Assembly (NCBI GenBank): GCA_029582155.1
Contig: CM055905.1
Location: 64,819,952-64,883,951, forward strand
Source: Panopea generosa
Taxonomy: Eukaryota > Mollusca > Bivalvia > Adapedonta > Hiatellidae
Direction of reading: 5' to 3'
Length of the DNA stretch: 64,000 nucleotides
This document shows positions 5,986 to 63,934 of the stretch, one piece after another (the first letter of the stretch is position 1; each line of letters begins with the position of its first letter). Below the pieces are notes generated by a model, which did no database searches, was not told the origin of the DNA, and saw only the letters and a program-made list of their open reading frames with translations. The translations under genes were made by a program, and so were the position numbers.

Positions 5986-6007
5986 GGTCTTTAATTCTCC
6001 AGCAACA

Positions 6008-11195: not shown

Positions 11196-11199
11196 ATTC

Positions 11200-11408
11200 T
11201 CCTGATTGGGTCAGTTAAATAGGAATGTTTGGAAAGCCACATTTGAGCAAATTGATTGGTCAATTACTACAACTGAATGTTTGAATGACGTCACAATTTA
11301 GTAAGCGTTCAATTGCTATGAATTGTGGGACAGGCATAGAATTCCCTGCTTTTTCATTGGTGGTTAATAGACCTGATTCGGGATATATCAGGTTTCGGTA
11401 TAGACCAG
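11200..11408 (+). repeat. MITE-A copy
   Basis: Contains GATTGGTCAATTACTACAAC, ATGACGTCAC and CATTGGTGGTTAATAGACC, ending GGTATAGACC. Confidence 0.75.
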
Positions 11409-11449
11409 AACAGATATACATGTAAGTTCGTGAGATATAAACTGGATAT

Positions 11450-23400: not shown

Positions 23401-26400
23401 GAAAGTTCATCACTGCATGGAATAGATATAGGTAAAGCGGATAATTAGTTTGTTATGCAACCAATTCATACTTGAATATCTATCTTACCTGTATCGGTCA
23501 ACGTTATGCTTGCAACTGTTCTCAAGTAAACAAACACTGGGTCCTATAATTTGATTATGTTTACAGGTTTCTGAACACTTAGTTCCTTAATGATAAACGT
23601 ATAAGTGCTATTAACAATGATAATTTATAAACTAGGCTAAATAGTTATTGTTTGTTAGTTCGCCCAACATGTCATGTTGACGTGTACTGTATACTGCCGA
23701 TTTGAGTTTAGTATTCATTTCAGTTATCAGGTTAAACTCCAATGACGAAAAACTCATCAAGCCTTTAAGGATGGGGACTTGTACCTGGGAACAAACCCAA
23801 GCTCAATATATATTAGATTTAAAAAACCTATGTGCAAATGATATCAGTAATCTAGAAAAGATACTTGCCTAAACACAGTTGGAGCAAATGACCAATCAAC
23901 GTGTTCAAATGTGGTTTTCCAAACGTTGCTGTTGAACGGACCTCTTTATTCACTTAACGATTTGACAATAAAGATAAAATTATTTCTTTTTTTATTGTTA
24001 TATTTAGGAGGACAATCATATTACAGAGAGCAGTTTCAAGAGAATAGCTTTATTTTAGTAGAATCAGTAAGCGAATAAGAAATACATATCAATTTATTAG
24101 AAACATTAAACATTTAAGACATATATAAAATTATTCAGCTTTAGCTTCAGAAACTTTAATTAGAAAATGATATCAATATTTTGGCCAAGTCTTTAAATAA
24201 ATTCAATAATAGATACAAAATAAAAAAAAACTCTTTTTATGCTACCTTGGATGTTTCTTGGCCATTCACATATTTATCATAATTGCCATTTTGCAGGTTT
24301 TACAATCTAACAACGCCTTCTGATTCTGAGCAGAAACGTGACGCTGACGCCAAAGATAATCTGAAACGATATGTGTCTTCTATTATACATTCGGTAAGGC
24401 ATTTTTGTGGTAGATACTGTTTGGGAGAAACACAACACGGCATTTGGTTATTTATTACGGCGCTTCGAAAATTGATTTAAATTTCAGATATTCTCTATTA
24501 AAGAAAATATCCATTTTATTTTGTAAGACACAATCATGGTAACTTGTAGTCTATATGTTCTGTCTAAATTCATTAACTCGCTCTTGTTAATTTGATTTTT
24601 AAAAGAAATGTGTTTCATAGAAAATTGTATGGCCAAAATACGTTATTTAATATTGTTTCAATATTGAATTTTGGAATGACGTTTTTTCTTGAGCATTTAC
24701 ATTTAAATGCATGTCATTTACATTTATTATACAAATAAGCCGAAATACATTGTTCGGAGGCGCCAAACAGTTATCATTCAGTATACCTACTTGATTAGTC
24801 TATGCCAGAACTTGATATCTCCCGAATCAGGTATATAAACATCCAATGAAAAAGCAGAGAATTCTATGCCTGTCCCACAATTCATAGTAGTTGAACGCTT
24901 ACTAATCTGTGACGTCATCAAACTTTCACTTGAAGCAACTGACCAATCAACGTGCTCAAATGAGGCTCTCCAAACCCTGCTATTTAACAGACCAAGTCGG
25001 GAGAGCTGGGTCCGTACTACAGACTACTTGATTAATTTATTTCAAATCCAATGTAAGCGTGTCTTGCAGGGAGACATAATATTAATTACAACTTTGTGTT
25101 ACTCGAATTTCATCCATTATAATTGTTTTCAGACCAACAATGCATATAGAAGTCTGGAACCTCACAATATCTCCATCACCATTGAGCCTGTACAACTACT
25201 TATTATGACGGTAAGTAATAGTATCACCACCAGACTGTATTGTGCTAGCATTAAAACATAGTCTTTCACAGAACCCGATATATTCCGAATCAGGTCTATT
25301 AAACACCAATAAAAAAAAATTGTCCCACAATTCAAAGCAACTGAACGCTTACAAAACTATGACCTCATTCAAATGTTCCCTGAAGCAACTGACCAATTGG
25401 TGTGCTTGTTACAATTGCTTTTGAGCGGACCCAATCCGGAGAGCAGGGTTCGTCCAACAGACTTATTCAAACACACATATTATTTACTCCTGTAATTTGA
25501 TTTGTTAACTATTCATTAAATTAGTTCTTTATTGCTATTTATCATATAGTATCAGAGAACAACATGTGGTAAGTGTTATCATACGTCATCGCAATATCAA
25601 ACTGTTAAAACTTATTTATTTTACATTGGCTGTGAAACAATTTGTTACAACTTACTACGATAAATAACGCTCAAAGTCTTCCTAGGTAGAACCAGTACTT
25701 CATTTAAGCATATGCAGACGAAGTATCTTTATCCAGGAAAATACACAAAGTCATGAAGGAGGATCGAACCAACGACCCTCCGAGCCTGAATACGATGCTA
25801 TTCCGCTGACCTATGCACTTTAAGATATCAAATCAAACGTAGTTACGCTTTGGTTTCAAATGCTAAGGTTAAAATACTTTATTGCAAGCTGTGTTTAATT
25901 CAATGAATTTAACATCTTAAAGAAAAACTCATTTTACACGGTTCTGCATGTAACGTAATGCACACATAGAGCTCTGAAAACATAACCACTAGTGCCTTAA
26001 GCGTTTTGTTTTTGTTACCCTTGATAAAGTACTGGTGCGCCGTATATATGCAGGAAAACATAAGATTGGCTAAATTACTTTTTCACAATTTATGACACCT
26101 CATCATTTTAAGTAACTTTGTCCATTTATTCTAGTGTATCATCTTGCACCTCCAAACTGTCATATCATCATCCAACAGCACCAAAATTTGCATAACTCAT
26201 GACAATGATTTAATCTTCCAACTACCTGATGAAAGAAACATAGTATTTTCAAAAAACACTATGTCTAACTTGTTTTAATTGATCGAGTATAAGAATCAAA
26301 GGGAGGTAATTGTTAATACCTATAACTGTTTATTATAAATGAAAGGAAATATTCAAATACATAAAAAGGAACAGCTGTAATGTGATGTATTTAGCAGGCG

Positions 26401-30883: not shown

Positions 30884-33800
30884 TTATATCATGTTTATAT
30901 TATATTTATATTATTATAAGTTTTCTGTGCAATGACTATACCATTGTGCTAGATACATTATTTGAATACCATGTCTATGTACACACATCTTCGTATTCTT
31001 GAATGTCTCTTAACAATTTCAGTTTAAGCTGTGGACACGATGGTTCCGACAATACGTGCCAAGAAGGAGAAGGCTATATCATGGAAGAAGGAACTATTTT
31101 AAACAGTACACACAAGTGGGAATTCTCACCATGTTCCATCAGCGACATCAGTAAATATCTTAATAAACTTTATCAGTAAGTAATGTATTACAATTGTAGT
31201 TTATCTATATATATTGAGTAGTTACATCTATGGACTTACCTATTGACGCACTTTCTGATATCAGTGTTATACACTACTGGTTGACAGAAGAGTGACAGCC
31301 TTGGATAACACTACCCCCGCCGTTAAGTGTCCTTAACATGTGTGTTAGCTGTGTATCCATCCAGTTTATATGTCCTTCAAAACGTAGTCTATAGAACAAA
31401 CCCTGCTCTTCCGATTGGGTCCGTTAAGCAATAGTTGAGCGCGTTGATTGGCCATTTGCTTCAACTGAGTGTTTGAATGACATCACAGTTTAGTTAGCGT
31501 TCAATTGCCATTAGTTGTGGGACAGGCATAGAATTCACTGCTTTTTCATTGTGTTGGTAATCAACTTTATAGACTTTACAAAATGTGAGATTGGGTAATA
31601 GACCTGAAAGACGATGAACCAAATACTATTGTTAAATATTCGAGAATGCAGCATTATGCCACGTGGAACGAATTACTCCTTAATACATACCCCGTTTTTG
31701 CTATCAGCTTTTCGTACCAATCTAGGGGGTAAAATATAATAACAATGCTTGATGTGTCTACTATTTATGGTAACATTTCAGCACGGTAGACTTCAGGGAG
31801 ACGTAGTCTGTGTCCTGAAATATGTTTTGAAAATGTCGAAATTTGGCAAGAATCACTAAAACTAAAATAATTGTTTCTTTTAATATGAGTTTTTTTTCGT
31901 TGCCTTTTTCAATTTGTAGATTGAAATATAGTATCAGTTTGAACGCTTGTTAGTTTTACAAGTAAATTTATATTTGTAAGTGCAACTTGTTTGTTTTCTT
32001 ATATTCTCCGACACAGCATTAATGATGACTGCATGTTGACCACCAACAATCATCACGTTCCATCAGAATTAGCAACCATGGGAACTAAATGGTTTGGTCA
32101 AATATATTCCCCCGATGGTCTATGCAGATTACGACGAGGTGACGGATCAAATGTCGATAGGGTAGGTATCGCTCTTCATGTGCAATGCCAAGTTATATTA
32201 TATTAATATATATCAATGTTAGAACACGCAGCTCTTTGCTCGTATTCACTTGTAGTTCTGTCAGCACGAGTTTGATATAGATGACTAACAATTCTCTAAA
32301 ACATAAAACGGAAAGGTTGTGTTTTTTTGTAAAAGCGTCGGTATAATCTTCCAAAAAGTAAAGAACGAGGTAGGACCGGATTTGTCATTGGCCGTTCCAA
32401 GACATGAACCCTTGTTGTTAGTTTTCCTGACATTATTATTGTTTTAATAATTCTTTTTATTTTTTGCTGATGTGCTGGTTGTGTCTTTTGTTGGGCACAG
32501 TCTTTCTGATTTATATCTGCTTGTTTCATGTTCAATATTACTATTACAACAATTATACTGCTATTTTAGTCTACCGTTGGGCAGTCTTTCTGATTTATAT
32601 CTGCTTGTTTAATGTTCAATATTACTATTACAACAACTATACTGCTATTTTAGTCTACCGTTGGGTAGTCTTTCTGATTTATATCTGCTTGTTTAATGTT
32701 CGATATTACTATTACAACAACTATACTGCTATTTTAGTCTACCGTTGGACAGTCTTTCTGATTTATATCTGTTTGTTTAATGTTCAGGATAACTATTACA
32801 ACACTTATACTGCTATTTTAGTCTACCGTTAAGCAGTCTTTCTGATTTATATCTGCTTGTTTAATGTTCAATATTACTATTACAACAATTATACTGCTAT
32901 TTTAGTCTACTGTTGGGCAGTCTTTCTGATTTATATCTGCTTGTTTAATGTTCAATATTACTATTACAACAATTATACTGCTATTTTAGTCTACCGTTGG
33001 GTAGTCTTTCTGATTTATATCTGCTTGTTTAATGTTCAATATTACTATTACAACAATTATACTGCTATTTTAGTCTACCGTTGGGCAGTCTTTCTGATTT
33101 ATATCTGCTTGTTTAATGTTCAATATTACTATTACAACAATTATACTGCTATTTTAGTCTACCGTTGGGCAGTCTTTCTGATTTATATCTGCTTGTTTAA
33201 TGTTCAATATTACTATTACAACTATTATACTGCTACTTTAGACTACCGTTGGGTAGTCTTTCTGATTTATATCTGTTTGTTGAATGTTCAATATTACTAT
33301 TACAACAACTATACTGCTATTTTAGTCTACCGTTGGGCAGTCTTTCTGATTTATATCTGTTTGTTTAATGTTCAGGATTACTATTACAACAATTATACTG
33401 CAATTTGTGAAGATTTCCGATGTACCGAGCCCGATGACGCCGACTGGTACACACATGGACTTGCCCCTGATGGATTACCTTGTGGTAACGGAAAGGTATA
33501 TTCTTAATACTATTTTTCTATCTGAACAGTGTCATTTGAAGATTATTAATTTTAACTTGGTATAAGATTTTTCCTCAGTGCGTTGGTTAAAGAAAACATT
33601 TTATACGACATGTAGTTACCTATGACTGTTACCCTGCATTTGTTAAATAAATAATTCAGCTACCATATTTATTATTTAAATGGATTTATATAACAATCGG
33701 AAACGAGTTACTAAAATATATTTGTTTATAGATTAAATTACATTTATTAAAACGGTACATTGAAGAAATTGCCCAACTGATAAAATGAAACGATATATAC

Positions 33801-36800
33801 AGCTATTATATGCAGACACTAGAAATTCACGAACAATGTGTAGTCTTTGAATTCATAAAATATTGGAAATCGTTCCTTAGGAATATTTGTTGGTTGAAGA
33901 CCGCTAGGTAAAAGGCTGTATTTGAATTGCTCCAAACGATAACTCTTGGTTTTGTTTGATATGATTTACACAATAAGATAAAAAGGTTTTGCTTTATTTT
34001 GATTTAACAGTGGTGTATGCAGAGCGCTTGTACTGCAGACAAGACTGCCCCAGATGTTCTAGGTATGAGCTATTGTTATGTTCTTCGTTCGTTAGACGGA
34101 CAGAAGTGTATATCTTTAATAGTAAAAATGTTTGATACTTGTATGAAATATATCCCCGTCATGTTAATATCATCAGTACTTTGAATCTAACATTAAAAAA
34201 AGGATACAAATAAAATAGTACCGAATGCTAACATTGTTGAATATGTTATCATATATAGTTGTCGGTGCTGTCAGTATAACTATAACAAATTAAACCGATT
34301 AGTCTGTAGAACGGATTCAGCACTCCCAATTGTCAATTGGTCAGTTATTCAGGGAAAGTTTAAATGACGTCACAGTTGCTATGAATTGTGGGACAGGCAT
34401 ATAATTCCCTGCTTTATCATTGGTGGTTAAAACATCTGCTTATGGTTCTGAGATAGACTAACAACCGATAGTACCATCATGCTCATAACGTTCATGACTT
34501 CAATATAAATTCCAATTGTATAGTGTTGTTTACAAATAACAATATTTCTCGTATCTTTCTGACCACATATTTTAACAGACAATTGTCCTGTCGGTGACCA
34601 ATATGGTGACGTCAAAGACGGCCGGACGTGTCAGGAAATAGTGAATGCAAACCCAAACGAATGTAACACAAAACTTGTTAAACGACTCTGCTGCCACACA
34701 TGTGCAAACGTGCATACCACGCCCACGCCCTTCAATGAGCAATGTACAAATCATCGTGGGACTGGTTCTATAGTTTGCAGGGTTTGTTGTCTAGGATATT
34801 TATAACCATTTGCCTAAACATTTCACAAAAAATATTTAAACATATTGTTTTTGAAAAAAACCTGTTCACAGTTAAAACTACACTTAGCTTTCTCGTGCAC
34901 CGATTAAGAAGCGTTGGTGTATCGATGTTAACGAAATTTAATACCGTTTACTTTAGTACTGTTCTACATATAAAGACATGCACTTCTGGAACACATAATA
35001 CATTACCAATCGTTCTAAAAGTGTTTTGTTTCCATAGAGTGGGCTCTGTTAGTCCAAATATGCAAGAAAATCATGGTGTTAACCAGGTTGCTTTTTCTCA
35101 ATTTTAATGTTTTGATGACAGCCCTTCATTGTTGACAATTCTGCCGATTTGTGGCAGTGTGTCACTATGCATTTTGAAACTGTTATATCTTCACCCAACA
35201 GTACCTAATATCATCCAAACTTGGCAGAACTCATGAAAGTGTTTTTTTTGTTCTCATATGTACAAAAATATGACCATTTTAAGCATTTTCAACAAAAATA
35301 ATGCCCAACCGATTTACACAGCTCTAATTTCTTGGGTGCAATAATCTTGCTACCGTCACTAAATTGAGGTAATTGGTAAGTGAGACCTATAGGCTGTAAA
35401 CAACAGTGATAATAAGTACGCGAACTTGTAAGTTATATCAACACAACTCTAAACAGCATGTCAGTATGTACCCGCTATGGAGCACTATCGATTGATAAAC
35501 AGTCTATACTTCTACTCTCATATACTATCGAATGTACACACATCATGGTGTATAAACGTTGCGATGTTTTGTAACAAACCATATGGTTAATAAATTTAGT
35601 CTATAATGATAACTAAACATATTAATTCACTAATTAAAAAGCAAAAAGATGTGTGAAATTTTAAGAAATTTCATAGATCTTACCTTAATCGGTGCTTTTC
35701 TTTCTCGATCGGAACCTCACGTTGAAATTGCACATCTTCTGTAGAGCGGTTAGGTTAGCATGTAATAACCTTTAGCTTGACAAAATAGTATATTATTTTT
35801 CTGCATTCTGTGTTTTCATGGAATCATTTTATCAGCAATTATTGTATGGGATTACATAATATAATCAACAGAGTAATCAAACGCCATCTATAGCCGTTAC
35901 TGGTAGTATGTACAGTTGATTTTAATAGCGCACCAAGAACTTACCAGAACCACTCATATAAAACCTACATATAACAGCCGGCATCTTCGGTAGAGCGGTT
36001 AACATGTAACTCTTCAGCTTGACAAGATTTTCACGAAACTTAAAGGAATTATATGGGCATATTACCGTCAATTCCCTGTCCTAAATACACACGCCCAGCA
36101 TGAAGATACACTTATAACTTAGAGATATACGCGTCTAAAGTGTCTAATTGCATAACCTCTTTATTACAAACATCGGGGTTTCTGAAGCCACGTTTTTGTT
36201 TTTGTTTACATTTGCCATTTTTTTTACGAACCGCTTTCGGGTTTCCGATCAATCATCGGATAACATCGTGAAGGCTCGTTCACTATCTCGTTTTCGAGGC
36301 TTTGTTCGGGAAGTTTACGGAGTTCAATGTAAATATTGCGCAATGCTTTATTGCGGGACGTATTAAAGTTTTGGCCAATATTCAATTACAGTTAATTTCA
36401 TAACTTTCAAGTAAAAAAAGGTTATACGTCAATATATAAGCATTATTTTGTTCACACTGCATATAGGAAAAGTCTGGATTAACAGAGTGTTTGTGTTACT
36501 TGCCAGTATAATCCCTTTAATATATTATTTATCTCTCTTCGCTGCGTTCTATGTTTCCGTTGAATTATTTTCTCAGCTTTTATTATATGGGATTACGTAA
36601 TATAAGCAACGGTGTATTCAAGATCAAACTCTATCTATAAACGTTTCTGGTAGTATGTATAGTTGATTATAAATAGCACAACAGAACCAGTCATATTAAA
36701 TCCACATATTACAGACGGCAGTAGCATACAATGATAAAATACTTCAAGATGTCATGTGTGCTGAACTTCATTGTGTTGATCCAACGAAGACAAATTCGTG

Positions 36801-37522
36801 CCCATTGCAATATGCAGACGACAAAACACCATGTGGATATAAGAAGGTTTAGTTTCTTCTAAAGAGGATTATGTATAATATGTATGTTTAACGTATTCTT
36901 GGAAGATATTGTGTTAAATCCATGCTATTGACAAATTTGGATAACATTTACAATGATATAGACGTATAAGTCAGTGTAAATGTTATTTAAGTGTTTCACC
37001 AGCCTAAATGCAACACAATTAATGAGAATTTGAATGAGAAAATTGTAAAAAAAAATGGATGCTGTGTTGCTGTAGTCCGGCTCTCTTCTGTGTGTTTTTA
37101 TTGTACCGATTATAATTATTCCATGTATATATTGTGTTTATGCTGTTTAGGTGACTGTTTCCTTACACTGCTACGTCTTATGTTCGATATTTTTGTCTGA
37201 AATGAGATAATGATGATATTACATTGAAATGCATATCATTTTAGGCATCATAGTGAGGAACTAACATATGAGATAAGATTTTGTTATCAGATTAGACTGA
37301 ACTAATTACCAGACAAACTGGTTTTCAGTTCATTCGTTTTACCAATACCGGTAATACCTGTGGTCAACACTAACATTGTCGCCTCTATATTTGTGACGCT
37401 TTTGATATTGTTAAAGCTACGTCTAAACTCAAGAAACATGAAAACACAACACAAGAAACACAAGAAGAGATATGAAAAAGCAACAAAAGAAGAGATATGA
37501 AAACGCAACATATTTAGCATGA

Positions 37523-40500: not shown

Positions 40501-43500
40501 TACTCAGTGGTAAAAGGTATTATGCAAATTGATACCTGTTCATGCAAATGAAACAATGTATGGGTATTGTTTTAGACAACTTATTTTTCCTATTATTAGC
40601 ACAGTTAGAAGTATTACTATACTTTCAATGTATTTATATGTAATACAAGTTAACATATCAACATTTTTATATCTTTACAGATTTTCAAATAGTTAACGCT
40701 TCGTGTTTTACGTTGTTGATTACGAAACAAGTGATTAATATTTCTTAAATTAATAATTCTTTAAGTATGTTATAATTTCTTCAGATTGTCAAGACGTTTA
40801 TACAATTCGATCTAATTTATTTTGTCCAGATCTTTATATAATTTAATTTTTATTGTTAAGCCCAGATGTTTACAGAATCGAATATTATTTATTGTTATTG
40901 ATCTTTTGTCTCGATGTTTACAAACATTTGATAATTATTTTTTTTTATTATTATTTTGTCAGATTATTAACACAATACGAGTATTATCTTATGTTTTTCC
41001 CAATATCTTTTCTTATTCGAGTAATATTAATGTATTTTAATTATTTTGTCCTGGTGTTTACAGAATTTGAGTATTGTTTTTGTTCTTTTGTCCACATATT
41101 CACGGCATTCGAGTACTATTTCTGTATTATTTTGTCACGTTGTTTACAGAATTCGAGTATTATAGGATTTGATGACCAGTGCGCCAACCAACACGGTACT
41201 GGTTCTGCAATGTGTAGGGTAAGTACATATAGGTTAACAACGGATATACTGTATCGCCCCTCCCCCCTCCCACAAAACAAAAACATGACCTTTTTGAAGA
41301 TGTTATCAAAATACTAATTACAATAGAATCGATCTTATTAGAATACCAGTTTTCCAATTAATGTACTGGTATATACTGTATGTTAAATATACTAACAAAT
41401 GCTTTATGCGTTGATAAAGTACAGACATATATTATATGTTTAATTTTTCAGACGGATTCGTTATAATCATGTAAAGTACTACCATAAAATATATGTTTTA
41501 TTACAGACGGATTCGTTATACCCATGTAAAGTGTTACCATATAGTGCATGTTTTATAACAGACGGATTCGTTATACTCTTGTAAAGTGCTAGCATATAGT
41601 GCATGTTTAATTATAGACGGATTCGCTATACTCTTGTAAAGTGCTAGCATATATTGCATGTTTAATTACAGACGGATCCGTTATACTCTTGTTAAGTGCT
41701 AGCATATAGTGCATGTTTAATTACGGACGGATTCGTTATACTCTTGTGAAGTGCTAGCATATAGTGCATGTTGAATTACAGACGGATTCGCTATACTCTT
41801 GTAAAGTGCTAGCATATATTGCATGTTTAATTACAGACGGATTCGTTATACTCTTGTTAAGTGCTAGCATATAGTGCATGTTTAATTATAGACGGATTCG
41901 TTATACTCTTGTAAAGTGCTAGCATATATTGCATGTTTAATTACAGACGGATTCGTTATACTCTTGTTAAGTGCCAGCATATAGTGCATGTTTAATCACA
42001 GACGGATTTGTTATACTCTTGTAAAGTGCTAGCATATAGTGCATGTTTAATTACAGACGGATTCGTTATACTCTTGTAAAGTGCTAGTATATAGTGCATG
42101 TTTAATTACAGACGGATTCGTTGTGCTCTTGTTAAGTGCTACCATATAGTGCATATTTAATTACAGACGGATTCGTTATACTTTTATAAAGTGCTAGCAT
42201 ATAGTGCTTGTTTAATCACAGACGGATTCGTTATACTCTTGTAAAGTGCTAGCATAAAGTGCATGTTTAATCACAGACGGATATCGTTATACTCTTGTAA
42301 AGTGCTAGCATATAGTGCATGTTTAATTACAGACGGATTCGTTATACTCTTGTAAAGTGCTAGTATATAGTGCATGTTTAATTACAGACGGATTCGTTGT
42401 ACTCTTGTTAAGTGCTACCATATAGTGCATATTTATTTACAGACGGATTCGTTATACTTTTGTAAAGTGCTAGCATATAGTGCATGTTTAATCACAGACG
42501 GATTCGTTATACTCTTGTAAAGTGCTAGCATATAGTGCATGTTTAATCACAGACGGATATCGTTATACTCTTGTAAAGTGCTAGCATATAGTACATGTTT
42601 AATCACAGACGGATTCGCTATACTCTTGTAAAGTGCTAGCATATAGTGCATGTTTAATTACAGACGGATTCGTTATACTCTTGTAAAGTGCTAGTATATA
42701 GTGCATGTTTATTTACAGACGGATTCGTTTTAACTTTGTTAAGTGCTACCATATAGTGCATATTTAATTACAGACGGATTCGTTATACTTTTGTAAAGTG
42801 CTAGCATATAGTGCATGTTTAATCGCAGACGGATTCGTTATACTCTTGTAAAGTGCTAGCATATAGTGCATGTTTAATTACAGACGGATTTGTTATACTC
42901 TTGTAAAGTGCTAGTATATAGTGCATGTTTAATCATAGACGGATTCGTTGTACTCTTGTTAAGTGCTACCATATAGTGCATATTTAATTACAGACGGATT
43001 CGTTATACTTTTGTATAGTGCTAGCATATAGTGCATATTTAATTACAGACGGATTCGTTATACTCTTGTAAAGTGCTAGCATATAGTGCATGTTTAATTA
43101 CAGACGGATTTGTTATACTCTTGTAAAGTGCTAGTATATAGTGCATGTTTAATCATAGACGGATTCGTTGTACTCTTGTTAAGTGCTACCATATAGTGCA
43201 TATTTAATTACAGACGGATTCGTTATACTTTTGTATAGTGCTAGCATATAGTGCATGTTTAATCACAGACGGATTCGTTATACACTTGTAAAGTGCTAGC
43301 ATATAGTGCATGTTTAATCACAGACGGATTCGTTATACTCTTGTAAAGTGCTAGCATATATTGCATATTTAATTACAGACGGCCTCAGCTTACTCTGGTA
43401 AAGTTCTGGCAGATGTTGTGTGTTCAAAATTTATGTGCTCCGATCCTAGTAGAGATACTTGGTGTCTTATAACCACCGCCTTCGACAAAACTCCATGTGG

Positions 43501-46500
43501 AAATAAAAAGGTATATTTAACTAATTATTTACACGAGCAGTCAGTAATTTTGTTACAGTCAAACCATTTAACAACAATAAATGATGGTTACAATGCTCAT
43601 ATAATCTCAAATTACGGATAGAATTATTATGCTTATTAAGCAGTGTGCCGACAGCACACTTTTTGGACTTACAGCACTCTAAGACTATTATCACCTTTGC
43701 TAATGGGATACAATAATGTGACGATTGAACAGTGTAACCACAATACAGTTTTTGAACTTAGAGAGCATACCGAGGGGTGAATGTGAAAAAGGCCTAAGTG
43801 CATATAAATAAAGACACTTAAACCTTTTTCGCTTTCACCCCTCGATACTGACTTCAAATGTACGCACTAAGACTTGACATTCTTTTCTAAACCGATGGGA
43901 CGACGATTGAACAGTGTAACCACAATACAGCTTTTGAACTTAGAGGGCGTGCTGACATCACTTTTCCCAATAGTATGTAACATTTGACTATTAAGAAGTG
44001 TAACAACAGTAAATAAACTTGGAGCTCGTGTGAAACGTCTTATAATTAATGTTGTTCCTCTGCACGATTTATCAATAAAAGAGACGTTATTCATTTGTTT
44101 ACTTGATTCATTTTCTTTAGAAAAGTAGTTTCAACTTTTCAATCTTTCTTGTCACGAAGATGTTCAATTAACAATTACTCGTCAGGCAGACTACTCTGGT
44201 GAATGGCGTCTCCTAAGCCAAGTAATTTATTGTGGCGAACTGTTACTTGCAATCCTTTATTGCAGTCTTAACGATGCATGTAAAACGATTGTATATAAGT
44301 CATAGTTAACACCAATTGTATTAGGTTGGTTGATGCTATTGTCTTATGTCATTGGTTGCATTGTAGCTAGGTACTCTCGTCGAGCAGATCTATACATTTA
44401 TGTCTAGTTGTTCACAAATGCTACATTTATATATGTGGATAACGTCATGATAAAAGCATGTATACATTTTCATCGGCGTTACAACACGTGCATATATTTT
44501 TCAGTGGTGTATAAAGGGGGTATGTGTCCACGATACGCACGCACAGCCTGTTTCAGGTAGGAAGAGTCGAATATGATCAGGGCTCATGAGGATCTTAAGT
44601 CAAAATATCAAAGTTACTCAAAATTTATTATTTATGTTTATCTTATTTTGACCACAGCAAGGACTGCTAAGCAAATGGTTAGTTAGTGGATAAACATATC
44701 GATAATCCGTTTCAATATTGTAACAGAAAAAGAAAAACAAAACCTAGACACTAATCTATGAAAAATATTGAATTTTAACACTTAGAAAAGAAAATAACAT
44801 AGACAAACTGTAAGCAAAATATAATATTAACATTCTATTCCATATTTTGTTTTGATTTTAGAGCAGCAGCATGAAATAACAATATAATTTGATGCACGCT
44901 AATCCTAATGAACACTCATAATTATAATAATTAAACACTCGTTTCCAATAAAAATATACATTTTGCAATGTATCAGAATGATTGTTTGTACAGCTGTTTA
45001 TGCACAAGAGAAGTACTGAAGTCCTATGATATCTGTGCTAGCAAGCATCTCTGTTATTGTTGATCAGTTTATAAAATTAAGTCAGATAACGCACCAAGTT
45101 AATAATGATCTATAATTATGACACTAAATCACCGATTCTAACTTTGATCAAATTCGTTTCACAAGATACATGTATTTGGGGAGACGCACAGGGTATTGCT
45201 TCACGTGGTCTGACATGTGCACAGATTGGTCTTCCCGAGAACCAGCACTACTGTTACAGTAACTATACTAAGTCCGTGTGTTGTGGCACGTGCGAATCTG
45301 TACAGCGAAACATTACAGGTAAATATAACAGTGATGCATGTAATATTTCAATATTTCACATACAAATTGCTTTTATCGTTTATTAACATTTTAGTTTACA
45401 CGAAAGTACATTTTTAACTCAAATGTTTAATGGCCTTATGACTTATGCGATGTTAATTTATCCGTCGTCCGCCGCCTTTCATGAACAATGGATCTCGTTT
45501 ATCCGATATTTATTTTTGATTGGATTCCGATCACACTTGGATGTAAATAATAAAATATCGAATTGTCGAATATATATATTTCAAACTTGGATACGTTGTA
45601 TAAAGCGATAAGGTATCGGTCGAGTCCGATAACGAGACAGTTTCATAATCTGCTGTAGACTGAATTATCTACCCTTGAATTGCTAAAATACTTTATTTTT
45701 ATTTTATCCAGTTTGAGTTTTGAATTTAAAAGATATTCATGGAATAAATGTGAATATTTTCTATATAACAATAAGATCTAGTAGGGTTATCTGTCTTTGA
45801 ATTGTTAAAATCGTTTTTAAATGAACTAATCAAATAAAGAATATTTCATAATATCAAATTTTAACTTCAGTATTTGCTGATTATCATTTATTTGATTTTT
45901 TAATTTTATATATTGATAACATACTTTTTATAAATTAATTATTACATATCTCTATAATTTTATTCGTATTCTGACAATACCTGCAATTATATACTATTTC
46001 ATAGAATATTTCTCTATTGAGAGATAATATTGAATACAATATGGTTAATTTCTAACAGTTTATCCCTGTTATAACATTTAATATGTTCAGCAGAGAGATA
46101 CATGCATTTATGGATATCTTGTTTATAATGTTAATCGGTTCGGTTATTCGCTGATATCATACTTTAATGATTATCACTATGACGTCATTTAATTTTCACT
46201 GAAGCAACTGACCAATCAACGTGCTCAAATATCATAACCATATGATTCACCAATCACCGTGCTCAAATCTCAATGCCATATGACGGACCAAAGCTGGAGA
46301 GCTACAGTCTAACTAAAACTACATGATCAAGAACATGGTTACACTAACCTTAAAATGGCAACGTGTGATCGAATTTGGGGCAAGGACCCTACCCTCTTTA
46401 CCCAGTAGTCGATTGATGCATTCAATTTCATATAAAGTATTCTGAAACATTACCTCGAGTTACAATGTATATCAATGGAGGCATACAAGAAACATGATAT

Positions 46501-49500
46501 CTATAAAACGTTATTGATACCTTCTTATTTGACAGATTGTGCTTATGGAGACAAGATGAGAGGGTGTGGTGTGAAAAGTTGCCCGTATTATAGCGCAGAT
46601 GAACGGACAAACTGTTGTGAAACCTGCCACGGTGCGTCGTCTGCTCCAGTATGTTTATTTTCTAAAACTGTGGTATTAGTTTGTTAAAACTGATTTGTTT
46701 TTCAAACTTAATTATTTTACCTCAATTGCGAAACAAGTTCTTACAACTTAGACAAACGTCTTCCTGGTAAAGCATATGCTGATAAGGGTTTTAGCTCAGG
46801 GATAACTTACATAGACATATTGGAGCATCGAACACATGACCTCCGATCCTATGTTCGATGCTCTAACACTGGACCATGCACCCCACAAAAGATTGATTTG
46901 ATTTGTGTATTCATTTAATGTCTGATTTAGTGGAACTCTTCAAACTCAAACTCGTTTCAATGTTATACACAATATTTAAAGTGATTTTCCATTTTGTGTT
47001 ATTTTAGAGCACATCACCTGTCAGCTTTGATCAACAATGTGTCAACAAACACGGAGATGGTTCCAAAATGTGCAGGGTAATGTCATCATAAAGATACCGT
47101 TACCTATATTCTGGTATATAACAGTATGGTATAGTGTACTCATGTGGTATCAACACACCATCGACAGTTTGAAGAAGGATTGACTATCCAATATTTTTAG
47201 GATAAAATGTTAAATATTTATTATTATTATTATAATGCAAACTGATATAGATACATTTTTTATGAACTTTTTGTTATGAAACATATCTTTTTTATTCTGT
47301 GATATATATTTATATATTTAGGATAAGAAAATGAAGAAGTTACTTTATCGAGTCCCGTTCTAAAAACCTAAAACAATAACCATACGAAATGACCGAGCGC
47401 TACTTAACAAAACTTCGATAAACTTTCGCATAACGAACTCCGTTTTTTTTCGAAAATTGTCACGAATATATCCATTTATAGACGACCTATTTGAGCACAA
47501 ATTTCTAGAAAGTGAGACACATATTGCTGCAGAAAATCGCACTGACTTCTGGAAATTGATTTGGTCTGTTGAATCAGATCGTGGACATTGATTTATAGGT
47601 GAGGCCTCTGTGAATTTATTTAACTGTTAACCTGTTAGCGATTTAACTCTTAAGTCATTTTGATTGCAGTCAGCGACATTTTACAATGGGAAAAACCTGT
47701 CATCAGTGATTTGTTCCCATTATTCCTGTGTCGATCCAAGCGATTCTAATTATTGTTTGACCACAAGTGCATATGACCGGACTTCGTGTGGATATAAAAA
47801 GGTAATATAAACATTTATTTAGATATACAGTTAAACCTATGTAAGCGGTCACCTCTATTGAGCATCCACTTGTCTTAAGCAGCCACGTTTGCTATTTCAC
47901 ATTTATTTGTTTTCTGAGCAGATTAACTCTATAAGCATCAACCTGTCTTAAAAGGCCACTTTTGACCTTTCCCTCGAGTGACTGCTTAAAACAGGTTTGA
48001 CTGTATGTAATACATTTTATGTCAATAACTGCATGCAAAATATTCTACAGTTCATGCCTTATATATTGTAATATATTTTTATATTCCAGCTTAATAACAT
48101 TTTTACGTTTTATTTGTTACGTCGACCAATTGAGTTTTATTCACAAATAGTATACAGTTACATTGAACATATCATATATTTGTTAACCCATGTGCATACA
48201 ATTATGAAAAGGATTCATAAGAAAGTGAATCTGTCTTTTTTAAAACCTCGTACTAAAATAAATTAATTTTAGAACTAAACAAACAAGATGTTTTTGTACT
48301 ACTATGGACAACAAAATAGTTTAAACAAAAATTGTTTATACCCAAATATTTAATGATACGTATTACTCAATTTGAACATATTATGAATGTATTGGCGTGT
48401 TTGTTGTCGCTGGTAAATTTGCAGTGACCCTTTGTTGCCGCTGGTAATACATCTGCAGTGACCCTTCCTCGTTTTACTGACAACCTTACCTTAATATTCG
48501 ATAAATGAAAATCTAAAATTTTGATACTGATTTTAAAATAACTGATTGACTGATTGATTGATTGATTGAATATTAAGCGTATTTTTCATGCCATCGATGG
48601 CTAACAGACGATCACATTACCACTGTTTCCTGAAAGGTTAACCAGTACTCGAGCACACCCCATCTCCGAAAGTAATTGATAACTTTCCCACTTAAATCAG
48701 CGGTGAGAGACGATTGATAATGAGGTACAATGTCGTATATCAATCATCACAGATACTGTTGCCGGGCGGGGATTCGAACTCACGACCCCTGGATTGATGG
48801 TCAGACGCGTTACCGACTGAGCTAATCGGGCCCGGCTTTTTTTTTAAAATTACAGCTATATTAGACAGTTATGCTGTCAATCAGGGGTGGGAGTTTAAAG
48901 AACTTAGGAGCCATCTCTATTTCATGTATAGTATTAAAACGTATGTTTAAACAAGTAGACTATCTTAGAAAGGTTTTGCAATGAAAGATTGCTATGCTAT
49001 ATTTAGGCGTTATTTTATTATTTTGGCATGCAATGTCCATTACTGTTCACATTTGAGACTTAAGCATGATAGCATAATGTATTATAATTCCGTTCCGCCA
49101 ATCACTGGGAAACTTTTTCACTTAAAATATTTTGATTTGGTTTGTCTCGAACCCACCACCTTAGCGATGAGAGGTATGTGGTAATAAGACGACAGTATCA
49201 AAGACCACTCGGCAGTGGAGGATCCTTGTTTTACTATCTGATCACCTCGGCCTTTATGCTACGCAATAGACCTCTAACATAATAAGACGCCATTTTGGAA
49301 CAACTTTCAGTCACATGATAAAATAAAATGGCGGACCCCTTATGCCACCTTTGTGGAAGTTGGTTAATCAAGACTGATATTTTAAATTTCACTATAAACA
49401 TGACCCATGTCGAGTGTATAAATAAAAAGATCGATATAATAACGCCATATATTCAACTTAATGACGGGTACATAATTTCTTACTTTCACGCGAATGAACA

Positions 49501-52500
49501 CAGACTTGTAACACAGGCGAATAGCGTTGATGTATTCAACAGCTATACACAAGGTGTATTATGCGGAGGATACGGAAATACCCGATGCTTCACGATTGCC
49601 TTGTTTTATTGAACAAATAACTAATGAGGAATTGTTGTTTACTGGGACCGTTGTTCTTTAACAAATATAATATTCTATAATTGTCATTTTGTCGTTGTCT
49701 CTACAGTGGTGTAGCGGTGGAACATGTATCCATGATGACAAAGCACTTGACGCTTCAGGTATTTATAAAAACATTTCCATGGTCATTTTTGCATTACCTT
49801 TTCAATTTAATAAATAAATGTACAGTGATGTTCGTACGTAATAGGTTTTATGCACTGTTTTCAATCAGGAACAGTAATTTATGTTTTATAAATTCGTATT
49901 TGACAGCTCTAATAAAAACGAACACTTTAGTCAGATGCTGAATACAATAATGATTCACATCGAAGTGATACCGGACGACCTTCACAATTTGTTTGTATAC
50001 TAGTCTATAGTACGGATTTTGCTCTCCCGATTGGGTCCGTTAAATAGTGATATTGGACAAGCCCCATTTGAGCTCATTGATTGGTCAGTTACTTCAACTG
50101 AAAGTTTGAATGACGTCGCAGTTTAGTAAGCGTTTCATTATTATGAATTGTGAGACAGGCATAGAATTCCCTGCTTTTTCTTTGGTGGTAAATAGACCTG
50201 ATTCGGGAGAAATCAGGTTCTGGGATAGACTAGTTTGTATACTAGCAATATAAATGCAGTACAATATGGGGTCTGACAACCAAAGGTCTTTCAGGGTTTT
50301 TAAGTGGTTGTTAAAGGTGATTGTGGCATTTGTGGAATCATACTTTTTTTGTGTTGTCAATGAATTTGGATTGTCTAAACTTACCAATATAAATATATAT
50401 TTTTTTATTTACATGCAAGGTTTGTTGTTTGTCTTTAAACCAATATTTGCTTTTGTGTATCATACATTTATTTATTCGTGTTTGACATCGGTATTGACCA
50501 TACGTATCGACATTGTTATCTATCATCAGGGCTACCATTATATTCTTATATTCTTATTGTTGTATTGAAACCAAGACGTAATTTTGTTCTTATATTCATA
50601 TATTATACAGTTAGTGTCAGCAACACTTTTTTACACACAATGTCTTTAATCCGTCAAGTAACAGCACAATCGTAATATACAGCATCATACACGGTTGTTA
50701 TAACACCCGGTCTCAGTTTCAATAAATATCTCAACTTCATATTTTCCACAACTGAAATTTATCATTTGCTATAGCCTTATTTGCAATGGCCATTTTGCAC
50801 GTTTTCCTTAGCCAATGAGTAAATATTTGATTAGGCTTCTAGGCTGAGTGGTCATTTAATGTGTGTTAGGTTCAGGCCCAAGTTTCATTAAACATCTCAA
50901 CTTGAGATTTTCCTCAAATCAAATATTCGAAATGCTATAACTCTATTCACATTGATCACTTTGCATGTTTTTTAACATCGAGTTATTTTAGTTAAGAACA
51001 ATCTCAGCTGTGCTGTTAAGTAAAACCGAACCAAGGTTATTATATAGCGAAATGATTTTATTAAACTGAGGAAAATCCCAGCTGTGATGTTTAGTAAAAC
51101 CGGGCCAAGGTTATTATATAGCGAAATGATTTTATTAAACTGAGGAAAATCTCAGCTGTGATGTTTAGTAAAACCGGACCAAGGTTATTATATAGCGAAA
51201 TGATTTTATTAAACTGAGGAAAATCTCAGCTGTAATGTTTAATAAAACCGGGCCAAGGTTATTATATAGCGAAATGATTTTATTAAACTGAGGAAAATAT
51301 CAGCTGTGATGTTTAGTAAAACCGGACCAAGGTTATTATATAGCGAAATGATTTTATTAAACTGAGGAAAATCTCAGCTGTGATGTTAAGTAAAACCGGA
51401 CCAAGGTTATTATATAGCGAAATGATTTTATTAAACTGAGGAAAATCTCAGCTGTGATGTTAAGTAAAACCGGGCCAAGGTTATTATATAGCGAAATGAT
51501 TTTATTAAACTGAGAAAAATCTCAGCTGTTATGTTAAGTAAAACCGGACCAAGGTTATTATATAGCGAAATGATTTTATTAAACTGAGGAAAATCTCAGC
51601 TGTGATGTTAAGTAAAACCTGACCAAGGTTATTATATAGCGAAATGATTTTATTAAACTGAGGAAAATCTCAGCTGTGATGTTAAGTAAAACCGGGCCAA
51701 GGTTAAACCGGACCAAGGTTATTATATAGCGAAATGATTTTATTAAACTGAGGAAAATCTCAACTGTGATATTTAGTAAAACCGGGCCAAGGTTATTATA
51801 TAGCGAAATGATTTTATTAAACTGAGGAAAATCTCAGCTGTTATGTTAAGTAAAACCGGGCCAAGGTTATTATATAGCGTAATAATTTTATTAAACTGAG
51901 GAAAATCTCAGCTGTGATGTTTAGTTAAACCGAACCAAGGTTATTATATAGCGAAATGATTTTATTAAACTGAGGAAAATCTCAGCTGTTATGTTAAGTA
52001 AAACCTGACCAAGGTTATTATATAGCGAAATGATTTTTATTAAACTGAGGAAAATCTTAGCTGTGATGTTTAGTAAAACCGGACCAAGGTTATTATATAG
52101 CGAAATGATTTTATTAAACTGAGGAAAATCTCAGCTTGAAATGTTTAATGAAACTCGTGGATTTATTGTCGGGTGACTCAGACCTAAAACCAACCAATGG
52201 AAGGCTGCGTATTTGGTTGATTGAGCTGAGCCGAACTCAGTTGAGTTTAATAAAGTTTTTCTCGTTGCTAGATTAATACAGATTAATACAGATAATAAAC
52301 ACAAAAATAGTATAATAAATTCATGAACATTGTTTATACAGATACCTGTTTCTGGGGTAATGTACCAGGTATTGTGACTTCCGGTTTGACATGTGAGCAG
52401 CTTAAAATACCCGACAACCAATATCACTGTTACTATAGTTACTCACGTACAAATTGCTGTGATGCATGCGGTTCTATCAAGAGAAGCATAGCAGGTAAAC

Positions 52501-59700: not shown

Positions 59701-62700
59701 TCAATAGTGTAAACGTAATGATCATATTTACAAAATCATTACAGATATATTCTAAAACTGTAAATATAGCCTACAATAGTTTGATAATGTGGCTCTGAAA
59801 TTCACTAGCAGTTTCTTTATCTTTTCAGTATATAATTACAATAGTAGATCTAGTATGATAATAGATCAATTACTTGGGGGGTCCTTCGTGGCCAAATGGT
59901 CTAAAGCGCCGTCTCAGGATCACTTGCCACTCACTGCTTATGTCATAGGCTCGAGTCTATGTGCAGAAATCGGAGGAGACATATTTCTTCATGAGTAAAC
60001 ATAGAGAGTCGGGCATTATATCATTTTGCCAAAGAGTTTTATTAATTGAATAATAAATGAGCACGAATGTAAGATTATCTTTATTACATAACTTAAATAT
60101 AGTATATTTACCATTTAACTCCATAAAGAACAAGAAAGGAAGTCGGATAGTAGTTCTGCATTTTACGTGCAAGAGCAGAGTTATACGGAAGAAAATGAGC
60201 AATGAATCGGATGTAATATAACCCTAAGTTAATATAAAAATATGTCATTCCTGCATCGTAAATTATGTGCTTCAATGTCTCACTTAAGAACTGTCTCCCT
60301 TATATGACGGTAGCAAGATTCTTGCGGCCAAGAAATTAGAGCTGTACAAATCAGTTGGGAATTATTTTTATTGAAAATGCATAAAATTGTCATATTTCTT
60401 TGTACGTATAGAAACATTGAAACATTTTCCCATCGATATTGTGAGAAAACTACCTAGTCAATACCTGTTTTTTCTGCATATTTGGACCAATAGAGGACTA
60501 TGTATGGCAACAAGGCACTTTTAGAACCATTGGTAATGTTTTCAGTGTTTCAGAAGTGTATTTTTCTATATGAAAAACAGTGCAACATTAATTGTTGTGT
60601 GAGACGTAAAGTGACTTACTGTTATGATCTGCTTATCGATAGCTTGAGCCAGACGTGTTGGCTTCAGAAGCATACCGTCTGCACGACAGCATCTGGAAAA
60701 TCGGACACAACGTATAGTTATATTCACTGACCTGACCCGGGCTGTCAATCAAACAAGTTGATTATCCAATCAGCGATCAATATTAGTTGCTACACTCCCA
60801 TTTTCTTAAGACAAGCAAAACGTCTATGACGGTCAATTGATGACACTTGACAGTTGTTGTATTAACATTGCTTCTGTTTCACCAAACACTTCCTAAGTTT
60901 TACTAAAGAACTGAAAAACTTAACCTGACGCGAGCTGTCAATCTAATCAGCGATCGATATTGTTTCAAATACTGCCATATTCATTCGAAAAACGAACGGT
61001 CGCTGAGTAAACACTACATTGTATTACATTATATTTACTTAGACAAACAATGCCACGTGGCCAGTGGCCACTCTCGCGTCAGGTCAATATTGATTGACAA
61101 CGTAATAGGGTTGCATTAACACGTTACAACAAAATGCAGTTGTACACTAGTCAGTCTAAACTCATTTCATCTGGACGCTTAATTTAATTTTTTAAGTATT
61201 TAAGTGTGTGTGAGTTAATAAAACTGGAACCTGTGTTAAAGTTATATTGATATACTGGTATAGTCTATAGAAAGAAAAACATAAAATTAAAAGATAAAAT
61301 ATATGTATTTTAATGGAAAAAGTATACTTAATACAAACATATCAAGATTTGCGGAAAAAGGCATTTATAAACATATTTTACAGGGCCGATATTGGGACTT
61401 CATGATCCTGGTCTTTTGACAGAATACAACCAATTCACAAATACTTTCTTCATAGCCAATCTAAGTCCCTGATATATTTCGAGTTAGGTTTAACCCCAAT
61501 GGAAGAGCAAGGAATTCAATGCCTAACCCATAATGCATAGCTATTTAATGCTAACAAATATGTGACGTCATTAAACTTTCCCTGAAGCAACTGACCAATC
61601 ATCGAGTTCAAATCTCACTTCTATATAGTGGACTTAAGCGGGAGAGTAGGGTCCGTTCCACAGTCTACTTACTTCATAAGGAGATCCCTGTCAGTGCCAC
61701 CTATCATGTCACTGGGCCCTACTGGACCTTTACTGAGCGATGCAACTACCGCTTCCAGGGCAGGGTACGGTTCTGTTTTGTCTATAAATATATACATGTA
61801 TATACATATATATACTTACACACAGAAACATTTTGTGAGAAAAAAACCAACTATTAAATAACTTACCTAACTTGAAAACACAGTAATTTGAAGAGTTTAA
61901 TGGAATGGAATTAAGCACCATTTATCAACAAGACATGCATGGCGTTCAGGTTTATGAGTGAAGGAAGACCTCATGTTATAAACAAGTATCTGAGAAGAGC
62001 CACCGTTCTTTCGTAAGTTACAAACAAACTTCCTCACATAAAATGTTTGAACAATGTGATGTCAAAATAGTCCAATACGGTCAAATACTGTCAATGTGAT
62101 GTCAGCACAGTTCAATACGGTCGAATACTGCCAGTGTGGTGTCAGAACAGTCCAATATGGTCAAATACTGTCAGTGTGATATCAGAACAGTCCAATACGG
62201 TCAAATACTTCAGTGTGGTGTCAGAACAGTCCAATATGGTCAAATACTGTCAGTGCGATGTCAGAACAGTTCAATACGGTCAAATATTGCCAGTGCGATG
62301 TCAGAACAGTCCAATACGGTCAAATACTGTCAGTGCGATGTCAGAACAGTCAAATACGGTCAAATACTTCACTGTGGTGTCAGAACAGTCCAATATGGTC
62401 AAATACTGTCAGTGCGATGTCAGAACAGTCCAATACGGTCAAATACTTCAGTGTGATGTCAGAACAGTCCAATACGGTCAAATACTTCAGTGTGGTGTCA
62501 GAACAGTCTAATATGGTCAAATACTGTCAGTGCGATGTGAGAAAAGTCCAATATGGTGAAATACTGCAAGTGCGATGTCAGAACAGTCCAATACGGTCAA
62601 ATACTTTAGTGTGATATCAGAACAGTCTAATACGGTCAAATACTTCAGTGTGGTGTCAGAACAGTCCAATACGGTCAAATACTATCAGTGCGACGTTAGA

Positions 62701-63934
62701 ACAGTCCAATATGGTGAAATACTTCAGTGTGATGTCAGAACAGTCAAATACGGTCAAATACTGCATGTACGATGTCAGAACAGTCCAATACGGTCAAATA
62801 CTTTAGTGTGATGTCAGAGCAGTCCAAATACGGTTAAATACTGTCAGTGCGATGTCAGAATATTCAAATACAGTCAATACTGTCAGTGCGATGTCAGAAT
62901 ATTCCAATACGGTCAAATACTGTCAGTGCGATGTCAGAACAGTCCAATACAGTTAAATACTGCCAGTGCGATGCCATAACAGTCAAATACGGTCAAATAC
63001 TGTCAGTGTGATGTCAATGCTTCGTGCTCAATTACAGGTAAATAAAATCTGAACTGTTATTTAGATTAGAATTTCTTGCGTTTAAGTTGTACAACACTGC
63101 TTACTGAATGGGTTTCCTGGTTGTTGAGGGGTCGTCCAGAATGTATCCTTGGAGGGATACAGCTTCATGGCATGTGCAAAAAGGGACGTGACCCCAATCT
63201 TCCATTGGTCAGGTCGTACATATTGATAATCGTCACTAACACGGGCCTGAAATAAGCAATTCAAAATTTGCTATATTATTCTCCTGTTGATTAACATTAC
63301 ACGAACATGTATTATTGTTTTGAATGTATTTTCAAACTTTTTACGATATTTCCTAATCGGTAATTATGCAGTTAATTTTTTTATAATTTTATACTACAAT
63401 TTTTTGCAGACAGATGATAGAAAGACAGTTGGGCTGGATCGAAATTTCGTAGAAGTAATTTTTTTAAACTTATTAATTTTACATCGATTATGAAACAAGT
63501 TCTTACAACTTAGACAGATCACCCTCAAGGTTTTCCTTGATAGAACCGGTACTAATGATATGCGAATAAAAGGTCTTGCTTAAGAACTCCACACATAGCC
63601 TTGGCAGAGAATCGGAACGATCTAGGTACGAAGGTAAGTGTGTTACACTACCTATGTAACAGTGAGTATTTTAAACTCTTTAGAGCATATCTGGGCAATG
63701 TCATGTAACACTTTATCGTGAAACTAACTAAAAAGACAATTATGTTGATTACACTACCTGTGTAACAGTTGGTATTTCTAAACTCTGTAGGGCGTGTCTT
63801 GGCATTGCCATGCAGTACTGTATGGTCAGACCTTTCTCTGCTGCTGCTTTCCCCATCTGTGTTAGCCAATCACGGCCTAGAGTAAGACTGGTCTGCAGGG
63901 CCGCCATATACCTGGTTTGTATATTTAACCAGTC
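56723..63934 (-). CDS. Secreted, probably GPI-anchored protein of unnamed animal family (seven 3' exons, 5' end outside window)
   Basis: Exons in transcript order: 63934-63758, 63246-63105, 61781-61673, 60692-60620, 59353-59195, 58386-58253, 57083-56723. They join with GT-AG sites and consistent phases (0, 1, 2, 0, 0, 2) to 384 residues and a stop; the N-terminus lies beyond the right edge. Conserved-looking runs: GLTIQYCMAMPRHALQSLEI, ARVSDDYQYVRPDQWKIGV, SKDTFWTTPQQPGNPF, SKGPVGPSDMIGGTD, ADGMLLKPTRLAQAID and AILGEFHKWIPMS. Strand-like segments alternating with acidic or aromatic runs recall a TIM-barrel hydrolase with C-terminal beta domains, but that is a guess. The C-terminus has a Ser/Thr/Pro/Asn linker and then the hydrophobic tail LLIKILLIKFVLYALHF, typical of a GPI signal. 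I do not name an enzyme activity. Confidence 0.82.
57361..57594. repeat. Palindromic MITE-D, copy 2
   Basis: Arms GCACATTATCAAACTATTGT and GCTTACAATAGTTTGATAAA; in the last intron of the right-hand gene. Confidence 0.75.
57826..58008 (+). repeat. MITE-B copy, diverged
   Basis: GAAACCTGTCTTAAGCAGCC to GCACAGGTTTAACTGTA, in the last intron of the right-hand gene. Confidence 0.7.
58405..58975. repeat. 24-bp minisatellite, about 23 copies, abutting an exon
   Basis: Unit ATTTATTATTACAGTATACTC plus ATT with 18-27 bp variants. Begins about 20 bp from the acceptor of the exon ending at 58386 (minus strand). Confidence 0.85.
59465..59831. repeat. Palindromic MITE-D, copy 3, enlarged
   Basis: Arms AGAGCCACATTATCAATCTA and CAATAGTTTGATAATGTGGC; left end duplicated (AAGAAACGCCGG at 59480 and again near 59600). 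Confidence 0.72.
59880..59975 (+). repeat. tRNA-Leu-like SINE fragment
   Basis: TTCGTGGCCAAATGGTCTAA and AGCGCCGTCTCAGGATCACT fit a tRNA-Leu-derived head; no tail follows. Confidence 0.45.
60289..60535 (+). repeat. Element Y copy
   Basis: GACGGTAGCAAGATTCTTGC, ATATTTGGACCAATAGAGG and TTTTAGAACCATTGGTAATG match 34995-35375 in inverse orientation. Confidence 0.6.
61455..61668 (-). repeat. MITE-A copy beside an exon of the right-hand gene
   Basis: TGTGACGTCATTAAAC and AACTGACCAATCATCGAG; the final GTCCGTTCCACAGTCTAC lies within 5 bp of the exon end at 61673, on the donor side. Confidence 0.72.
62047..63018 (+). repeat. 38-40-bp minisatellite, about 24 copies
   Basis: Units contain GATGTCAGAACAGTCCAATA and CGGTCAAATACTGTCAGTGC; 38- and 40-bp forms alternate, which leaves several overlapping ORFs open. 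It sits in an intron of the right-hand gene. Confidence 0.9.
63640..63718 (-). repeat. Decayed duplicate of an exon 3' end and donor
   Basis: TTACACTACCTATGTAACAG and AGAGCATATCTGGGCAATGTC parallel TTACACTACCTGTGTAACAG and AGGGCGTGTCTTGGCATTGCC at 63750-63812, the donor end of the exon 63758-63934. Confidence 0.75.

Follow-up and report, generated by a model that had tools for sequence, protein, structure and literature searches.

Intron-exon boundaries that have been copied in tandem are best known from lancelets, where such repeats are called 'mirage' minisatellites. Cases have been described for Adh3, the globins BflGb6 and BflGb9 (PMC3087553), and for PGBD5 and troponin C (PMC3902484). 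In the available parts of these papers, the lancelet globin genes carry minisatellite-like duplications of intron-exon boundaries, and the BflGb6 units measure 150-160 bp and number 6 in one haplotype and 3 in another (PMC3087553). The Adh3 mirage has units of 10-72 bp and displays somatic length instability (cited in PMC3087553). Splicing seems to be undisturbed by these repeats, as suggested by the Adh3 data and by globin RT-PCR, and mirages have been proposed as a route to new introns (PMC3087553). A related event is described in the available text on the potato RdRp gene, where one boundary-crossing tandem duplication at an acceptor made an intron (PMC4974935).

Here we describe a 55-bp array that runs into an exon of an ADAMTS-like gene within a window of 64,000 nucleotides, the whole stretch of DNA analysed. 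We consider it probable that this array is a mirage minisatellite, a hidden and tolerated duplication in which the last acceptor is chosen by exon definition. The initial annotation of the DNA had presented the array as a single oddity, but the gene has three arrays of this sort, and they fall in a class that already has a name.

The host gene and its window

The + strand gene encodes an ADAMTS-like metalloprotease. The zinc-binding HExxH motif is found as HEMGH at 30114, followed by a reprolysin-like exon at 31023-31175 (E 3e-4, below the Pfam cut-off), a fragment for which no solved-structure match was found at E 0.01. The exon at 32017-32161 is disintegrin-like by inspection, without a Pfam match on its own. 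A module of CR (120-132 nt), WC (52 nt), WGD (153-159 nt), YGD (110-113 nt) and FDD (69 nt) exons then recurs about four times between 33376 and 55832, an internal domain expansion within one gene. Module 1 differs in that a single 203-nt exon combines WGD and FDD, and a YGD exon was not found there; the fourth module was traced as far as YGD. All four modules match ADAMTS_CR_2 above its cut-off (27.3 bits). The joined CR and WC peptides score 39.8 bits (E 6e-10) for module 3, 37.4 bits for module 2 and 34.9 bits for module 4, and the joined disintegrin, CR and WC peptide of module 1 scores 41.6 bits. A total of 19 exons with predicted boundaries were placed, giving 19 acceptors and 18 donors; the set stops at 55723 and excludes exons further 5'. 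The GC content is 33.5% and GC3 is 34-36%. Lancelet DNA has a higher GC content, and these values would fit a bivalve better; the host is probably not a lancelet.

Several other features were seen in the window. On the - strand, a 433-codon open frame at 7783-9081 has leucine-rich repeats (LRR_4 E 8e-7) and a C-terminal hydrophobic stretch and is receptor-like; a 47-bp x 32 array (6006-7518) lies ~260 bp past its 3' end. A 40-bp array at 62055-63016 is followed at ~63037 by CAATTACAG|GTAAATAAAA, which is very like the WGD3 donor and could be a degraded exon end. Open frames with similar peptides recur at 11285-11422 and 50110-50250 on the + strand (MTSQFSKR...NRPDSG) and at 24790-25023 on the - strand (MTSQISKR...YIPDSG), probably as parts of a dispersed repeat. 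Finally, a 142-bp x 4.2 array at 4808-5406 contains GACCAGGGATCGAAC, which resembles the box of a tRNA-derived SINE. Across the whole window, Rfam gave no match at gathering scores and no tRNA was found.

A 55-bp array running into exon CR3

The initial annotation had counted about 35 tandem copies in front of what it called exon 18, here CR3, and had read each copy as the end of the intron joined to the start of that exon. When split at the junction, the array consists of 35 head-to-tail units on the + strand (41452-43378), 33 of them 55 bp and two 56 bp long, with 49 exon-like positions followed by an intron tail. The corresponding TRF row (41436-43411, period 55) has 35.9 copies with 91% matches and 0% indels, and the mean pairwise identity among the units is 91.4%. 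Every unit starts with ACGG, and the intron tail ends in AG, or in GG in one unit. At the left edge, two decayed units are found on the + strand from 41359 to 41445-41451, with a local score of 67, while none of 200 letter-shuffled flanks scored above 30. The array thereby takes up all but about 140 nt of the 2,160 nt between exons FDD2 and CR3.

Exon CR3 (43379-43510, + strand, 132 nt) encodes the peptide TASAYSGKVLADVVC...CGNKK and matches ADAMTS_CR_2 when joined to the next exon, and GT is found directly after 43510. It continues the register of unit 35 and thereby makes a 36th member, so that the authentic junction lies inside the array, and the claim that the real exon is the last array member holds. 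In exact register, the unit consensus matches the start of CR3 at 30 of 44 and 34 of 49 positions, and the conceptual translations TDSLYSCKVLA (unit) and TASAYSGKVLA (exon) agree with those first given. For comparison, 20,000 dinucleotide-shuffled exons in the same register gave a mean of 14.7 and a maximum of 28. The likeness also extends beyond the shared junction letters: with ACGG left out, 30 of 45 positions match against a shuffle maximum of 26.

When 125,871 ungapped placements of the unit consensus were compared across the window, on both strands and without the array's own + strand positions, the start of CR3 was again the top match. The third-best placement (28/49 at 41339) falls on the decayed array edge. 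The second-best (30/49 at 11153-11201) lacks the acceptor part and could be due to chance or be an old dispersed piece. A free profile search of the whole window was weaker, as CR3 obtained E = 0.15 and ranked below this apparently unrelated site (11158, E = 0.0092); the case for homology therefore leans on exact register and adjacency. Taken on these terms, the comparisons support the 55-bp unit as a copy of the 3' junction of CR3 itself.

The direction of descent can be approached with the paralogous exons CR2 (36715-36846, + strand) and CR4 (47670-47801, + strand) as outgroups, which we take to be exons 13 and 23 of the initial annotation, where a comparison with both had been proposed. Each matches the unit at 22 of 49 positions and CR1 at 16 of 49, as opposed to 34 of 49 for CR3. 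At the 14 unit-CR3 differences within positions 1-44, CR2 shares the base of CR3 ten times and that of the unit once, and for CR4 the counts are 8 and 3. As both side mostly with CR3, the exon is taken as ancestral and the unit as derived. Because CR2 and CR4 match the unit so poorly, the array most likely arose from CR3 after the modules had duplicated; on the same counts, an origin from CR1, CR2 or CR4 was rejected.

The array has also been turned over internally. A 211-bp run at 42826 is present again, without a single difference, at 43046, and this four-unit block duplication (42826-43256, + strand, 220-bp lag) is a recent one. Of the 595 unit pairs, 5 are identical, their members standing 3, 4 or 5 units apart, and 30 of the 35 units are distinct. 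Mismatches to the consensus number 9 in the left-most unit, 6 in unit 2, 7 in unit 24, 2 in the right-most unit and 0-5 in the others. The most divergent members are thus the left-most unit, the decayed units beyond it and CR3, as would be expected if the edges escape homogenisation. The gradient is not a clean one, as unit 24 exceeds unit 2 and the right-most unit is not excluded from homogenisation. A TGTTYAA microhomology, noted by eye at position 43 of both the unit and CR3, was considered as the birth seam of the array and kept only as consistent with one, since the decayed units left of 41452 hide the original left breakpoint.

Repeats at other acceptors of the gene

A second acceptor-spanning array of 84-bp units lies at 32498-33375 (+ strand) and combines an intron tail with the first ~28-31 nt of CR1. 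The last member of this array is exon CR1 itself (33376-33495, + strand, DYYYNNYTAICEDFRC...), and the joined disintegrin-CR1-WC1 peptide matches ADAMTS_CR_2 across the junction (E 1.7e-10). Of the first 28 bases of CR1, 25-26 are shared by the units. The CAG|GAT of CR1 has become CAATAT or CGATAT in nine of the ten units, and the AG is thereby lost. The only unit that keeps it (32750) is a multiple of 3 away from CR1 but has an in-frame stop. From 32833 to 33504 the array forms one long open frame (28 codons per unit, no stop) that continues in frame into CR1. This is probably a chance feature of AT-rich DNA, although an acceptor upstream of it could add in-frame sequence.

The third array (40851-41149, + strand) is decayed, with ~42-bp units of the form ...TTTACAG|AATTTGAGTATT that each hold ~12-14 nt of exon, and it ends in exon FDD2 (NSSIIGFDDQCANQHGTGSAMCR, 69 nt, 41150-41218, + strand) as its last member. 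Five units upstream of FDD2 were found with whole-window E values from 0.1 to 7e-9; the profile used had been made with three units, and the five include two of them. The AG is kept in two of the five and lost in three. In both the 84-bp and the ~42-bp arrays, the repeat may have come from the exon or the exon from the repeat. At the CR2 acceptor (36715) there are two copies only: the intron tail at 36542-36720 has a second copy at 35801-35983 (+ strand), about 732-747 bp away, and both reach ~6 nt past the junction.

Copies spanning the junction were searched for within 2.5 kb upstream of acceptors, and downstream of donors, with a cut of 44, the highest shuffle maximum. They were found at 4 of 19 acceptors (scores of 110 for CR1, 90 for CR3, 56 for FDD2 and 48 for CR2) and at none of 18 donors, a difference that is suggestive only. 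On the reverse sides, downstream of the 19 acceptors and upstream of the 18 donors, there were no copies. Among control points within introns, 112 of 517 (22%) had such a copy upstream and 121 of 517 downstream, while none of 103 points in exon interiors (16 exons then known) had one either way. Acceptors thus have repeats about as often as introns do, in contrast to donors and to the interiors of exons, and the idea of acceptors as repeat hot spots was dropped, as 4 of 19 is no excess over 22%. In post hoc binomial tests on the 16 exons then known, 3 of 12 TRF clusters at 30-58 kb end no more than 50 nt into an exon (p 0.004), as do 3 of 5 hand-counted true minisatellites in the same region (p 0.0002). 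A further 74-bp array with 148/222-bp higher-order forms lies at 51000-52154 in the intron before WGD4 (52342), where it stops short of the junction.

Decoy acceptors, proposed origin and known systems

An AG stands directly before ACGG in 34 of the 35 units of the 55-bp array. The earlier statement that most units keep TACAG|ACGG is accordingly right for any AG, but not for strict TACAG, which is seen in 19 of 35. When scored by a weight matrix for which 15 further acceptors of this one gene were used, the true CR3 site ranks 15th of 36, and a simple score therefore sees no distinguishing signal in the last 20 intron bases. Used as an acceptor in the phase of the exon, each of the 35 units runs into a stop after 4-30 codons, much as had been anticipated. 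The donor-like GTAAAG of the units scores from -6.4 to 3.3 in a donor model from 14 donors of the same gene, which themselves score from 5.0 to 10.5 (8.8 for the CR3 donor). CR3 has its own internal copy of this motif, CTGGTAAAG, which at 4.8 comes near the weakest real donor. In these models no unit combines a good acceptor with a good donor, and pseudo-exons within the array were rejected as unlikely because the donor-like sites are too weak.

Masking of the decoys by RNA structure was likewise rejected, as the last six units with 45 nt of CR3 displayed no unusual fold (z -0.07, 100 shuffles). With no local signal and no special folding, the cue that is left is the body of CR3 and its donor 132 nt away, and the last acceptor is probably picked by exon definition. 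That this acceptor is the one in use is itself read from the protein domain. Splicing to the nearest decoy would give a 187-nt exon, a length that is no strong obstacle to exon definition by itself. The unit has 25 invariant columns out of 55, and the longest invariant run (7) lies across the junction with a permutation p of 0.08, which is unconvincing as a sign of selection keeping the AGs.

We propose that the array was founded by a tandem duplication that reached from the last intron bases through about base 49 of CR3. All copies but the last would then fall in the intron and be spliced out, leaving the protein unchanged. The duplication would be hidden from selection because the copies sit upstream of CR3 and are removed with the intron. 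Free from coding constraint, the intronic copies could diverge from CR3 and then spread by multi-unit or unequal exchange or by slippage, while CR3 would be held by selection and left out of homogenisation. Only the last acceptor would lie at a normal exon length (132 nt) from a good donor and be chosen by exon definition, whereas splicing into a unit would lead to an early stop and probably to mRNA decay. Under this scheme the array may be close to neutral.

A functional array of poison acceptors, in which regulated use of the decoys would lead to a stop and mRNA decay and the array length would tune the amount of protease, seems unlikely to us. Such a role would fit the AG in 34 of 35 units, the stop within 30 codons in all of them and the unremarkable rank of the true site (15th of 36). 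Selection on the AG is not clear from the invariant run, however, and the AG has been lost in nine of ten 84-bp units and three of five upstream ~42-bp units. The stops are in any case expected where the DNA is AT-rich and the unit length is no multiple of 3, and the lancelet mirages are reported, in the available text, to leave splicing undisturbed (PMC3087553). A regulatory role of the array, like the slowed or alternative splicing raised in the initial annotation, is hypothetical. Misassembly could have inflated a short real array, and the copy number of the lancelet PGBD5 repeat does vary between assemblies according to the accessible part of PMC3902484; with 30 of 35 units distinct and 5 of 595 pairs identical, the array is unlike a looped assembly, and we regard an artefact as very improbable.

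As repeat and exon are homologous, one direction of descent must hold, and the start of CR3 might instead have been made from the repeat by extension of the exon into the array, as may have happened at the 84-bp and ~42-bp arrays. For the 55-bp array we give this very little credence, as the paralogues side with the exon by 10 to 1 and 8 to 3 of 14 sites and the ADAMTS_CR_2 domain is retained in each of the four CR exons. An unrelated intronic minisatellite that abuts CR3 and resembles it by chance would be in keeping with a window so rich in tandem repeats (46 TRF rows) and with the free profile search, where another site ranked above CR3. Yet a match of 34/49 in register, as compared to 28 at most for a shuffled exon and equalled by no other placement, is hardly to be reconciled with coincidence, and two further arrays run into exon starts, one of them at 25-26 of the first 28 bases. 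We consider chance abutment scarcely credible.

The array is a natural test of spliceosome choice among dozens of near-identical 3' splice sites, set apart mostly by how far they lie from the body and the donor of the exon, and the gene shows, three times, how an intron can grow without touching the protein. Tentatively, acceptors might act as one-way ratchets, since any tandem duplication that spans the 3' boundary of an intron is hidden when the last copy restores the exon. Introns of minisatellite-rich genomes could then lengthen by repeated mirage formation, and the decoys might either be disarmed in bulk by homogenisation of an AG-less unit, as in nine of ten units of the 84-bp array, or stay armed and leak, as in the 55-bp array; the AG is kept in 1 of 10 units in the former and 34 of 35 in the latter. 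Were such arrays common outside lancelets, they would tie the turnover of minisatellites to the length of introns and to noise in splicing, and new introns could arise from them, as the accessible text of PMC3087553 proposes for the lancelet globins. The present array would itself carry mirages beyond lancelets if the host is a bivalve and not a lancelet.

Other systems share single features with this locus. In tandem alternative acceptors (NAGNAG, TASS), several acceptors a few bases apart compete for one exon; the acceptors of the 55-bp array would likewise compete for CR3, but they are 55 bp apart and came about by duplication. Turri and colleagues reportedly described in 1995 a minisatellite with multiple splice donor sites in IFI6 (6-16). 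This minisatellite is also mentioned in the available part of PMC3618361. Both repeats supply a transcript with a row of splice sites, but these are donors in IFI6 and acceptors here, where use of the extra sites is hypothetical, and no unit has a usable donor (at most 3.3 as compared to 5.0-10.5). As in the potato RdRp gene, the duplicated segment takes in the last part of an intron together with the first part of the exon that follows, and the copy has acceptor signals. The potato event, as far as the accessible text goes, gave a new intron and an added exon (PMC4974935), whereas many copies lie inside an old intron here and no new exon is evident; that no unit joins a good acceptor to a good donor and that all readings stop early speaks against intron gain by duplication at this locus.

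Literature and citation searches among open-access papers showed no many-copy acceptor array outside lancelets, which is weak evidence of absence; the available parts of two papers with minisatellite and splice terms (PMC3039753, PMC3862624) describe none. The closest likeness is to the lancelet mirages, as far as these are covered in the accessible text (PMC3087553, PMC3902484). Both are tandem, minisatellite-like copies of an intron-exon boundary, in BflGb6 likewise made from the 3' end of an intron and the 5' part of an exon, and in the 55-bp array the authentic junction is itself a member. Splice signals are present in many but not all copies in both, and both point to concerted evolution inside the array with the boundary copies excluded, apart from the right-most unit here. 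Lancelet mirages are known from both kinds of boundary, while none was found at the 18 donors tested here. The kind of repeat is thus already known, but the gene differs from the lancelet cases in its 35 copies at one acceptor, as compared to 6 and 3 in the BflGb6 haplotypes, and in its three arrays, and it is this copy number and this recurrence in one gene that are unusual.
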